DNA of 7,142 nucleotides, taken from positions 1 to 7,142 of the forward strand of contig JAFAWJ010001118.1 in the NCBI GenBank assembly GCA_019242065.1, in the 5' to 3' direction. This document shows, in pieces, positions 1,031 through 7,142 of the stretch. The number at the start of each line of letters is the position of its first letter. Position 1 is the stretch's first letter. The notes beneath the pieces are model-generated. The model saw nothing but the letters and a program-made list of their open reading frames with translations, made no database searches and was not told where the DNA came from. Source of the DNA: Chloroflexota bacterium. Its GTDB lineage: Bacteria > Chloroflexota > UBA6077 > CF-72. A program made the translations under genes and the position numbers.

Positions 1031-1312
1031 TCAGACTCTTCCACACGCGGACGTGACGCGGCTGGGGTAAAGACTATCGGAGCTCACCACCTGGCTGGCT
1101 GCCCAAGAGCGCCACAGGTCAGCGAGCGCAGCGGGGTCGCACTCGTCCCAGTGGCCCTCGTGCGCGTGGTGCGCGTGGCCATCCACCAGATAATCCACGT
1201 GCTGGGCGGCGTGCACCGCCGACGGGTGGCCGCAGCCGGGGCCATGCGGATGGTCCTCGGCGCCTTGATGCGGCTGATGAACCGGCGTCGTCCAGAAGGC
1301 GTTGTCCGTCAT
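1031..1312 (-). CDS. Small histidine-rich putative metal-binding protein
   Basis: This is a 93-residue protein with 12 histidines, all between residues 12 and 54, and cysteines at 27, 58 and 90. The core (about 21-58) reads HPHGPGCGH, then HVDYLVDGHAHHAHEGHWDE, a pattern I recognise from small uncharacterised histidine-rich proteins found in many bacteria, often near metal-handling genes. There is no signal peptide or membrane segment, so it is probably cytoplasmic. Its ATG overlaps the TGA of the LigA-like gene (ATGA, 4 nt), and its own TGA is 3 nt before the dehydratase ATG, so it is translationally coupled on both sides. The position next to an Fe(II)-dependent dioxygenase and a Mg-dependent enolase-fold enzyme suggests metal delivery or buffering. 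That is inference, and no function is established. The C-terminal tail (59-93) is not histidine-rich and I do not recognise it. Confidence 0.8.
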   Translation of the reverse strand: MTDNAFWTTPVHQPHQGAEDHPHGPGCGHPSAVHAAQHVDYLVDGHAHHAHEGHWDECDPAALADLWRSWAASQVVSSDSLYPSRVTSACGRV

Positions 1313-1599
1313 CCCCGCACACCGCCGTCCGGGTCATCGAGCACCTGACGGATGGACTGTTGATATTCCGCACGCGTCAACCCGCCGAGTGCGTTGAAGC
1401 GCGGTAGCCGTGACATCAAAAACGTGTGCGTCCCCATGCGGTACAGCGCCGCCATATCACGGTTCAGGAGTGCCTGGCGCTCGAGCTCCGTCAAGGGCAG
1501 GTCCGCCAGGGCCGCGTCGGGGTTACTCCGCAGGCGCTCGCGAAACTCCAGGTCGTTCTGCACCAGCCAGAGCGCCTTGTGGATGCCGTACAGACTCAT
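1309..1599 (-). CDS. LigA-like small (alpha) subunit of an extradiol dioxygenase
   Basis: This 96-residue protein resembles the alpha subunit of protocatechuate 4,5-dioxygenase (LigA fold, all-helical). The visible family pattern is an N-terminal helix (LYGIHKALWLVQND), the arginine-rich RERLRSNPDAAL, then LTELERQALLNRDMAALYRMGTHTFLMSRL. The conserved 'L-x-x-E-R-x-A-L-x-x-x-D-x-x-x-L-Y-x-M-G' core is intact. In LigAB enzymes this subunit caps the active-site cleft of the LigB catalytic subunit and has no catalytic metal of its own. It is shorter than the usual 120-140 residues. The ATG at 1599 is 3 nt after the TGA of the LigB-like gene, with GGTGGGA upstream as a weak ribosome-binding site, and its stop overlaps the next start. 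Separate adjacent large and small subunits match the lig arrangement and support a heteromeric enzyme. Domain-level identification is firm; the substrate is unknown. Confidence 0.88.
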   Translation of the reverse strand: MSLYGIHKALWLVQNDLEFRERLRSNPDAALADLPLTELERQALLNRDMAALYRMGTHTFLMSRLPRFNALGGLTRAEYQQSIRQVLDDPDGGVRG

Positions 1600-1602
1600 C
1601 TA

Positions 1603-2433
1603 TCAGTCCCACCGCCAGGCGGCGTAGGCGTTGCCGCCGCGCAGCTGGGGCTCGATCTGGCGTGGGCGGCGGCCACCGACGGCGCCGAGCAGCGCAATCC
1701 AGTTGAGCACCTCGCCGGTGACGTTGCCCGCGCGCTGCAGGCGTTCGCGCGTCGCGGCGTTGAGCAGATCGTTGACGTTGCCGTCGCGCATGCAGGCGAC
1801 GGCGAAGTTCACCCACGCATCGTCCGCCGGTGCACCCGGACCGCCCGGCGAGGCGTGCGGTCCCCCGATATCACCTGAAATTGCGCCGCTGGCGACAACC
1901 GCGACGCGCGCATCACCCGGCAGGGCGTCGATGGCCTGGCGCACCATTTCGCCGGCGGCAAACACACGCCGCGACAGTGGCAGCGGTGGCGCGATGCCAT
2001 TTACCCAGAACGGGACGAACGGGCGCCGCATGCTGGGGTTGAGCATCTCCAGGGGCACGGTGACGGAGTGGTCGACCGTGAATTCCTCGGTGAGTGTCAG
2101 GTCGAAGCCGTGGTCGAGTCCGCAGACATACATGTGGCGGGCCAATGTCTGCGCGACGGGGATTTTGCGAAAACTGGTGAGACCGGGCCAGTCGTCGGTA
2201 CCCGGACCGGACGTTTCTTCGGCCACTCCGATGGCGAACACGGGCAGCTTCTGGTAGTACCAGGTCGCGAAGTGGTCGGTATCGAAGAGGACCAGGAAGT
2301 CAGGGTCGACGGCGTCGAGGTGGTCGCGCACCATGGCGAAGAGCTGCGCCAGCTCGCCATGGGGCTCGGTGCGCACGCTCAAGGGCGAGTTCGGCATGTG
2401 CGGCACACCGAATGCGCCTACGAGCTCCGCCAC
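1603..2433 (-). CDS. LigB-type extradiol ring-cleavage dioxygenase, catalytic subunit
   Basis: This 276-residue protein belongs to the LigB (class III, type II) extradiol dioxygenase family, which uses non-haem Fe(II) and O2 to open catechol-like rings. The family iron ligands can be placed: H12 in GVPHMPNSP, H54 in FDTDHF, and E241 in GEVLNWIALLGA, matching H12/H61/E242 of Sphingobium LigB. H122 (VDHSVTVPL) matches the second-shell H127. The usual TGGxSH motif reads SGAISG (182-187), so the catalytic-base histidine is a glycine; H193 lies close by. The Gly codon is GGT (1873-1875), two base changes from a His codon, so one sequencing error does not explain it. The start is GTG, supported by AGGA 9 nt upstream and by correct placement of H12. 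The gene lies 11 nt after the second TetR gene and 3 nt before its LigA-like partner. Alternatives are a dioxygenase with another acid/base residue, or a relative with altered chemistry. Confidence 0.9.
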   Translation of the reverse strand: MAELVGAFGVPHMPNSPLSVRTEPHGELAQLFAMVRDHLDAVDPDFLVLFDTDHFATWYYQKLPVFAIGVAEETSGPGTDDWPGLTSFRKIPVAQTLARHMYVCGLDHGFDLTLTEEFTVDHSVTVPLEMLNPSMRRPFVPFWVNGIAPPLPLSRRVFAAGEMVRQAIDALPGDARVAVVASGAISGDIGGPHASPGGPGAPADDAWVNFAVACMRDGNVNDLLNAATRERLQRAGNVTGEVLNWIALLGAVGGRRPRQIEPQLRGGNAYAAWRWD

Positions 2434-5596: not shown

Positions 5597-6493
5597 ATGC
5601 GCATCGACGTTCACGGTCACTTTTTGCCGGATGACTACGTGCGGCTGGTTGCCCGCGCCACGGGCAGCACCAGCCAGGATCCCGCGCTTCAGCAACAGGG
5701 CAGCATCGCCGAGCGCATTGGCATGCTCGACGAATCGGGCGTCCAGCTGCAGGTGCTCTCACTCGGCAGTAACGCCCCGTACCTGAGCAAGGAGCAGGAC
5801 GCCGTCGCGGCCGCGCGCGTTGGCAACGATGCCTACGCGGCGATTGCCCGCGAGCACCCGGGCAGGCTGGCGGCCTTCGGCAGCGTGCCCCTGCCCCACG
5901 TCGACGCCGCCATCGCCGAGGCCAGCCGCTGTCTCGACGAGCTCGACATGCTGGGCATCGCCCTCGGCTGTTCAGTAGGCGAGCGTACCCTGGACGACGC
6001 CGCCTTCGAGCCGTTCTGGGCGGAGCTGAACCGTCGCAATACGGTCGTCTTTCTTCACCCAATTTTCCGGGCCACGGACGCGCACATCCGCGACTACGAG
6101 CTGGCCCGCATGGCCGGGGCGTGCTTCGAAGACACGCTGGCGGCGCTGCGCTTGCTGTTGTCGGGGCTGGTGGACCGTAATCCCGAACTGCGGATCATCG
6201 TGCCGCACTTTGGGGGCACCTTGCCGGTGATCTATCCGCGCATTTTGCGGCGCGGCAAGGCCGACCTGCTGCGCAAGCTGTACTACGACACCGCCAACGG
6301 GTACGCGCCCGCGCTGCGCTGCGCGTGCGAGGCGCTGGGTCCAGAGCGATTGATGCTGGGGACGGACTTTCCGTACATCGGGGCGATCAAACACAACGTC
6401 GACTACGTGCTGAATGCCGGTCTACCCGAAGACACCCAGAAACAAATCCTGGAGCGCACCGCCGCGGATGTGCTGGGACTCGCGAGCGTCTAG
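5597..6493 (+). CDS. Amidohydrolase-2 family metal-dependent hydrolase/decarboxylase (ACMSD-like)
   Basis: This 298-residue TIM-barrel protein belongs to the amidohydrolase-2 family, which includes ACMSD, gamma-resorcylate and 5-carboxyvanillate decarboxylases, and the LigI/LigJ enzymes of the protocatechuate 4,5-cleavage pathway. Metal-site residues are in order: HxH at H6/H8 (DVHGHF), H154 (VFLHP), H204 (PHFGGTLP) and D257 (GTDFPY). The sequence between (MLDESGVQLQVLSL, LAAFGSVPLPHVDAAIAEASRCL) is typical of the family, and length is normal. It is cytoplasmic; there is no signal peptide. Expected reactions are C-C bond decarboxylation or hydration/hydrolysis of a carboxylated ring or ring-cleavage product. 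It follows the receptor gene by 152 bp and may have its own promoter. It faces the LigAB-like operon across the divergent promoter region, which fits a shared aromatic pathway, but the exact reaction cannot be read from sequence. Confidence 0.9.
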   Translation: MRIDVHGHFLPDDYVRLVARATGSTSQDPALQQQGSIAERIGMLDESGVQLQVLSLGSNAPYLSKEQDAVAAARVGNDAYAAIAREHPGRLAAFGSVPLPHVDAAIAEASRCLDELDMLGIALGCSVGERTLDDAAFEPFWAELNRRNTVVFLHPIFRATDAHIRDYELARMAGACFEDTLAALRLLLSGLVDRNPELRIIVPHFGGTLPVIYPRILRRGKADLLRKLYYDTANGYAPALRCACEALGPERLMLGTDFPYIGAIKHNVDYVLNAGLPEDTQKQILERTAADVLGLASV

Positions 6494-6670
6494 GACGACC
6501 ATATGAGTGATGCACGGCCTGTCGCGTGTAAGTTTTACGGGGAGTTGGTCTCCGACAATGGTGGGATGTCTCGACCACACCAGCGCCGACAGGCGAACTG
6601 TCGACTTGATGAATCCGCTCGACATTCGTGTTTGACCATGGTGAGCTGACAGTCGCGGACAGCACGTACG

Positions 6671-6727
6671 CGGGGGGTCGCCGCGGGAGTGAGCGCAGCG
6701 AACGGCGGCGGGGGGCTGCCGCCCCCT
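6671..6727. repeat. GC-rich hairpin block next to the palindrome array
   Basis: CGCCGC (6679-6684) pairs with GCGGCG (6705-6710) around a 20-nt loop containing GAGTGAGCGCAGCGAACG. Directly after, GGGGGC (6711-6716) pairs with GCCCCC (6721-6726) around a TGCC loop. Such blocks look like dispersed intergenic repeats of GC-rich genomes. Together with the three palindromes 18 nt further on it may form one composite element of about 150 bp. No transposase, obvious terminal repeat or target duplication is visible. Confidence 0.5.
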
Positions 6728-6744
6728 GACCCGTTGCGTTAGCA

Positions 6745-6817
6745 CCCAGCGGTGCATGCACCGCTGGGCAAGGTGGCGCATGCGCCACCTTGAGGAGTGC
6801 GCGCATGCGCGCACTCC
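6745..6817. repeat. Array of three adjacent perfect 24-bp palindromes centred on GCATGC
   Basis: Three perfect self-complementary units of exactly 24 bp lie end to end: 6745-6768 (arm CCCAGCGGTGCA), 6769-6792 (arm CAAGGTGGCGCA) and 6794-6817 (arm GGAGTGCGCGCA). Units 1 and 2 are contiguous and a single A separates 2 and 3, so centres are 24 and 25 bp apart. Each centre is GCATGC, but the outer arms differ between units while every base pair is kept. As RNA on either strand each forms a 10-bp stem with a CATG loop; as DNA each could extrude a cruciform or bind a symmetric dimer. The array starts 13 bp past the stop of the SLC13 transporter gene. It could be a bidirectional terminator lacking a T-run, a REP-like or MITE-like repeat, or a protein-binding array. 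It is not a CRISPR array. Confidence 0.9.
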
Positions 6818-6830
6818 CTCCAAAACAGAA

Positions 6831-7142
6831 CTAAAACCGCCAGACGAAGGGGACCCACAACAGGGCAATTACGGCGTACCACAGCAGCATGGGCAGGCCC
6901 AGTTTCCAGTAGTCGTTGAACTGGTACCCGCCAGGACCCATCACCATCATGTTGCCTGGCGTCGCGACGGGAGTGAGGAAGGCGGCGGCGGACATGACGT
7001 TCACGGCCATCAGCATTGGGCGGCCCGAGACGCCGACGGCGGCGGCGGCTGACAGGGCGATGGGGATCACCACCAGCGCCGTGGCGGTGTTACTGATCAG
7101 CTGACCGAGGATCGCGGTGATCAGGATCAGCCCCAGCAGGAG
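6831..7142 (-). CDS. SLC13/DASS-family sodium-coupled anion transporter (C-terminal part)
   Basis: The last 103 residues of a polytopic membrane transporter are visible; the 5' part lies beyond the right edge. The segment opens with a hydrophobic helix and then SNTATALVVIPIAL, the second SNT motif that in DASS (INDY-like) transporters helps bind sodium and the substrate carboxylate. Next come a helix, SAAAFLTPVATPGNMMVMGPGGY with the family's TP-x-x-TPGN turn, a short FNDYWKLGLP linker, and a final membrane helix ending in FVWRF before TAG at 6831. Family members import di- or tricarboxylates, sulfate or related anions into the cytoplasm. The gene converges on the amidohydrolase gene, so a role in the same pathway (carboxylate uptake or efflux) is only a possibility. 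The frame remains open to the end of the window. Confidence 0.9.
   Translation of the reverse strand, partial: LLLGLILITAILGQLISNTATALVVIPIALSAAAAVGVSGRPMLMAVNVMSAAAFLTPVATPGNMMVMGPGGYQFNDYWKLGLPMLLWYAVIALLWVPFVWRF

Follow-up and report, generated by a model that had tools for sequence, protein, structure and literature searches.

The three adjacent palindromes in the window (the whole 7142-bp stretch of DNA that was analyzed) make up, with a probability of about 70%, one of the two ends of a mobile repeat that is small and non-autonomous, so that the window holds a half copy. Similar arrays occur in two relatives, G005 and G024, where complete copies, empty sites, and the pairing of the arms could be compared.

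Palindrome Array and Element Anatomy

The units at 6745-6768, 6769-6792, and 6794-6817 are perfect 24-bp palindromes with gaps of 0 and 1 bp, as the sequence-only reading had described; a recount of the window palindromes confirmed it. The rest of the window showed two further perfect palindromes of at least 12 bp, both of exactly 12 bp. Base composition predicts only 0.0012 single 24-bp palindromes per 7142 bp, and chance is therefore excluded for three consecutive ones. The array is located between the converging Amidohydro_2 (+) and CitMHS/SLC13-like (−) genes, and the core of the half copy begins near 6655. The features around the array are as follows:

5597..6493, + strand: Amidohydro_2 gene, convergent with the transporter gene, on the other side of the array
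6655..6738, + strand: GC-rich element core, 5' of the palindromes, with the GGGGGGCTGCCGCCCCC hairpin near 6705-6728; BLAST matches in G005, G023, and G024
6745..6768, no strand: palindrome P1, CCCAGCGGTGCATGCACCGCTGGG; G024 has an identical unit (L185 2020)
6769..6792, no strand: palindrome P2, CAAGGTGGCGCATGCGCCACCTTG
6794..6817, no strand: terminal palindrome P3, GGAGTGCGCGCATGCGCGCACTCC; fits the family pattern
6818..6824, − strand: element tail, TTTGGAG from the transporter-gene side; family consensus TTTGGRN (column counts, 41 terminal palindromes)
6831..7142, − strand: CitMHS/SLC13-type transporter gene (partial), stop codon 6831-6833, 13 bp from P3

Rfam gave 0 matches at gathering score in the window, and window 6494-6660 as a BLAST query gave zero matches in 66 fetched regions at E ≤ 0.01. 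Elsewhere in the window (1309-2433), LigA- and LigB-like ring-opening dioxygenase genes are adjacent, beside two TetR regulators.

Complete copies of the element are about 245-420 bp long, with outward-facing palindrome ends and a TTTGGRN tail. The number of adjacent 24-bp palindromes at an end varies from one to three, the best-preserved ends having three. Two end types were observed, type 1 (that of the window) and type 2, which differ in the upstream part. The complete copies are listed below:

L153 4449-4799: complete copy, two outward ends
L153 6370-6726: complete copy, two outward ends
L157 691-989: complete copy, two outward ends
L195 2619-2999: complete copy, two type-2 ends
L197 1625-1985: complete copy, two outward ends
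L180 2162-2578: complete copy in G024, one good palindrome per end
L153 2001-2243: shorter complete copy, damaged units

No separate gene was called inside the copies with a simple gene caller, which lets some frames run into them. In total, 87 family units were found in 285,541 bp of regions chosen around matches, by a screen at ≥9 of 12 pairs that undercounts decayed units. Another 14 of the 101 screened units were dropped as unrelated or too decayed; L189 1865 is among these 14, yet it was counted among the 41 terminal palindromes. Unit length was fixed at 24 bp, and 82/87 units showed a palindromic NCATGN centre. The shared GCATGC core of the sequence-only reading held for the three units of the window but not for the family, in which the constant centre is CATG: GCATGC was found in 40 units, TCATGA in 30, ACATGT in 12, and other centres in 5. 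A GCATGC-specific family is ruled out, as CATG is constant and the flanking base variable.

In G023, three loci (L173, L174, and L175) showed the GC-rich core with other terminal hairpins and zero 24-bp CATG palindromes. The core there forms inverted pairs, with both ends visible in 2/3 loci, as if end modules had been exchanged between species.

Relatives, Filled and Empty Sites, and Position

A pattern of three spaced GCATGC sites matched 1/29 class genomes, namely G005 (MAG Chloroflexota bacterium isolate CP_BM_RX_R9_6, which carries locus L043). This match showed three perfect 24-bp palindromes with the spacing of the window, in reverse orientation, with a matching upstream core and different arms. 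With window 6650-6830 as the BLAST query, G005 gave seven long matches; the matches in G023 and G024 were partial. Screens of the fetched regions showed many arrays, those of G024 being more decayed. The initial proposal of a dispersed repeat family, against which the lack of a second copy in relatives would have spoken, is borne out by these copies in G005 and G024, since their arrays are similar and vary between copies and between relatives.

Covariance model R1 matched 2/29 class genomes with 150 candidates scored per genome. In the phylum sample it matched 2/400 genomes, under stricter filters and with 11 candidates scored per genome; that run recovered 10 G005 matches against 36 listed in the class run, so weaker carriers can be missed and absence of the family outside the matched genomes is approximate. 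Both G005 and G024 are draft bins. The literature searched, in which few subscription papers were covered, gave no description of this Chloroflexota repeat family.

Genes of the window were also compared with those of relatives. A first scan of genome contigs for amidohydrolase relatives gave none, and a broader alignment kept 80 of 100 loci; the organism-named entries among 120 listed amidohydrolase homologues were all Chloroflexota. The solute-binding protein of the window has a 71% identical copy in G005. In G024, which belongs to the same class, the C-terminal 103 residues of the transporter are 93% identical and the MR_MLE protein 94% identical, and for this reason the window organism seems close to G024. 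The 7.2-Mb G005 gave 83 matches to the family 5 solute-binding protein of the window, some of them pieces of one gene; by these matches it has a large set of transporter paralogues. A plasmid similarity search returned 21 records, the best of which overlap the transporter gene; not one spans the greater part of the query. In viral contigs, triple GCATGC arrays were rejected, as none of 33 spacing matches had three palindromes of at least 16 bp, and many of the 33 look like tandem repeats. The IMG/VR contigs L002, L004, and L006 are related to one another and showed repeated GACAACGCATGCGTTGTC-like sites and a common 52-bp perfect palindrome.

Contig C23 of G005 and contig C307 of G024 align at about 76-82% identity across an operon of the branched-chain amino-acid transporter type by Pfam (the liv gene names are our own labels). 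In G005 a full copy separates LivM from LivG, two genes that overlap in G024. Another full copy follows LivF in G005; at this site the G024 flanks are joined, the aligned blocks lying 2 nt apart. The shorter two-ended copy that G005 has between LivJ and LivH corresponds to one lone terminal palindrome (11/12 pairs) in G024. Because G024 lacks two of these copies at the corresponding sites and keeps a lone palindrome at the third, the repeat is, on this sequence comparison, a mobile, REP/MITE-like element. No target-site duplication was evident at the two empty G024 sites, and the two closest G024 relatives of the window transporter gene have no element after the stop. Reverse complementing leaves a palindrome unchanged, so the ends of a copy repeat each other in both direct and inverted orientation. 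The interior of the element could drop out between the terminal palindromes, and a lone palindrome would then remain.

Most terminal palindromes follow closely on a stop codon. With gene ends taken from a simple GC3-based caller that may be off, 27/41 had a called stop, on one side or the other, at a distance of 0-25 bp before the palindrome, which was 10-15 bp for 18 of the 27; the background was 970/11939 intergenic positions (8%) away from copies. Among the remaining 14/41, 12 were more than 60 bp from any called stop, one was 46 bp away, and one had a one-base overlap. The outer tail TTTGGRN (n = 41) showed T in 31, 34, and 31 units, followed by G in 32 and 39; the orientation of lone palindromes was hand-set, partly from the tail, which favours these counts and touches the G.T/A.C counts given below. 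The array had been linked to convergent genes in the sequence-only reading. This link did not extend to the G005 operon, where copies lie between co-directional genes and at the operon end.

In this operon (C23, L153 4776-4799) LivG appears to start at an ATG in the centre of a terminal palindrome, and GGAG 7 nt upstream of the ATG is a possible Shine-Dalgarno site. The start MSELLQ aligns gap-free with MTDLLV of G024, where the element is absent. This start suggested a derivation of the arms from the insertion site, which may equally be a coincidence.

Pairing in the Arms

The seven type-1 arrays compared showed standard pairs in 99.5% of 210 cells, and 13/30 pairs were changed on both sides. 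In any of five measures, 0/500 shuffles reached the observed value, and sliding the pairing partners abolished the covariation signal. These arrays are well-preserved type 1, with type 2 uncounted; the selection excluded L153 2172, in which an indel breaks the third unit, and L157 917, whose first unit is decayed. A joint alignment of both end types put gaps inside palindromes and was excluded from the counts.

A pairing-blind test was made with the pattern GGANNNCGCNCATGNGCGNNNTCC, in which four base pairs were left free. It matched 2/29 class genomes, and the sites were palindromic at all free pairs in 21/21 cases in G005 and 7/9 in G024. In the phylum sample 4/400 genomes matched (G005, G024, G003, and G090); G003 and G090 together had three sites, one of them (in G090) fully palindromic. 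In viral contigs, 0/8 matches were palindromic. Chance palindromes are ruled out by the free-pair counts of G005 and G024 set against the viral ones, together with the count in the window. The earlier observation that pairing is kept while the sequence is not thus holds beyond the window, in the covariation of the seven arrays and in the free-pair test.

Among the 87 family units, 69 were perfect, with 33 distinct arms, and 18 were imperfect. Perfect arms one step apart (24 pairs) showed 16 transversions and 8 transitions, and spanning trees of the arms gave about 13 transversions to 6 transitions; the arm network is small and its edges share arms, so they are not independent. For rRNA stems, PMC8794818 reports that the transition type makes up 61.0% of the instantaneous compensatory changes. 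The imperfect pairs of the 18 units, read from the gene side, were 5 G.T, 9 A.C, and 13 other. As far as such small numbers with some hand-set orientations can indicate, the arm changes give no sign of G-U intermediates. Terminal palindromes without a neighbour passing the screen were perfect in 12/16 cases; several of these 16 have a decayed neighbour and two belong to the one complete copy of L180, so the truly lone ones are fewer.

Arm complementarity may be maintained at the DNA level, by template-switch correction of imperfect palindromes, by selection on the hairpins, or by both. In such a scheme DNA-level maintenance would weigh more than RNA pairing, which tolerates G-U. With modest confidence we prefer a combination of correction at the DNA level and selection that removes broken hairpins. 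A more specific account is possible but doubtful: the element would insert directly at stop codons and its ends would stay perfect because one arm serves as the DNA template for the other, through template switching or hairpin-primed synthesis, and not by selection on letters, so that the arms would drift freely, always in pairs, even in lone palindromes.

Alternative Explanations and Known Repeats

A structured RNA, acting as terminator or 3' stabiliser and selected gene by gene, would give a common fold that is not mobile. The fold predicted for the RNA of each strand does have three strong hairpins (z −5.0 and −4.6), the location just past stop codons suits such a role, and the arm changes are paired. 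The copies at different sites, several hundred bp long, with an outward-facing end on each side and a common core, do not suit it, nor do the empty sites in G024 and the lack of a G-U excess. A U-tract terminator was not found either, window 6450-6900 having 0 terminator-like sites (hairpin then U tract). Taken together, we consider this reading unlikely. Sites of a dimeric DNA-binding protein, a roadblock or a regulator, would explain the nearly invariant CATG centre and the fixed unit length. A dimer that reads sequence would not need arms in which the letters are free and the pairing is kept, however, and the copies carry a common mobile core, which makes this explanation quite improbable. 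Palindromes are known trouble spots of assembly, but the window, G005, and G024 bins all showed the same build and the same kind of paired differences, so that an artefact or chance is practically out of the question.

The repeat could also be a REP (REPIN) family in the strict sense, mobilised by a RAYT/HUH transposase that was lost or that the draft bins lack. The hairpin ends in inverted pairs, the proximity to stop codons, and the dispersal resemble the REPs and REPINs described in PMC12306157, PMC8266576, and PMC3686654. However, the Y1/RAYT transposase (PF01797) gave 0 matches in G005 and G024, draft bins that may miss genes, so the RAYT or HUH-type transposase that the sequence-only reading had suggested looking for was not found in the carriers; among class genomes, 9/29 had a PF01797 match at E ≤ 0.001. 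The conserved unpaired tail is TTTGGRN and not GTAG/GTGG, with GGAG inside the pairing. A link to the best-scoring Y1_Tnp of the class, in G023, was rejected, as the surrounding 3,959 bp showed no strong similarity to the element. The strict REPIN reading is accordingly rather unlikely, and a mobile repeat of which the window holds one end remains our preferred explanation.

The family has the traits of the broad REP definition in PMC12306157, being extragenic, short, and palindromic, with a shared consensus, many copies, and frequent location beside stops. Like REP/BIME/REPIN elements of E. coli, Pseudomonas, and Stenotrophomonas, it consists of short dispersed extragenic palindromes in inverted pairs. 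It differs from them by adjacent triplets of perfect 24-bp palindromes, by a TTTGGRN tail in place of an unpaired GTAG/GTGG, and by the GC-rich core and the length (about 245-420 bp) of its copies, with no RAYT found in carriers. Many REPs are reported 1-20 nt past the stop codon (PMC12306157), their palindromic part is described as variable in base composition (PMC3686654), and some Stenotrophomonas REPs are also CATG-centred (PMC2817692, PMC3686654).

T. roseum is a Chloroflexi species. A GTAG-23 family is reported in it (PMC3733652), from which, as from the CGTC-/GTAG-tagged REPs of the same source, our family differs in tag, unit length, and arrangement; for GTAG-23 this holds by description only. 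Both groups are dispersed palindromic repeats, but the unpaired GTAG/CGTC tag at the palindrome end is not seen here, where the tail is TTTGGRN and GGAG is paired. CGTC repeats are described there as having no known dedicated transposase, and the five phyla that the source names for them do not include Chloroflexi (PMC3733652).

As in MITEs, the copies are short and non-coding, with inverted ends and two between-species empty sites. They differ from MITEs in their self-complementary palindrome ends, which are hence also direct repeats, in showing no evident target duplication, and in having no autonomous partner among the matches listed: no long end pair of an autonomous transposon was obvious among the covariance-model matches listed. 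Compensatory changes are also said to preserve the pairing in two other kinds of mobile hairpin repeat, bcr1 of the Bacillus cereus group and the double-hairpin elements found in fungal mitochondria. The likeness to our family is by description, and organisms and anatomy are different.

In mRNA, the element ends would fold as a row of strong hairpins directly past the stop codon. According to work cited in PMC12306157, ribosomes stall at REPs that lie no more than about 15 nt from a stop codon. By analogy with REP elements, the hairpins may slow 3' decay or the last ribosome and tune expression within operons.

The element adds a repeat family that hugs stop codons to Chloroflexota, where literature searches showed little on such repeats; PMC12306157 gives REP counts for three genomes of the phylum. 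PMC8794818 presents it as an open question whether selection or a copying process during DNA replication produces the compensatory changes of hairpins. A single genome here has dozens of short perfect palindromes with many different arms, some of the palindromes being lone, and a relative has empty sites. Selection and DNA copying are thereby directly comparable in a bacterium, and the family could help to test how bacteria keep hairpin sequences intact.
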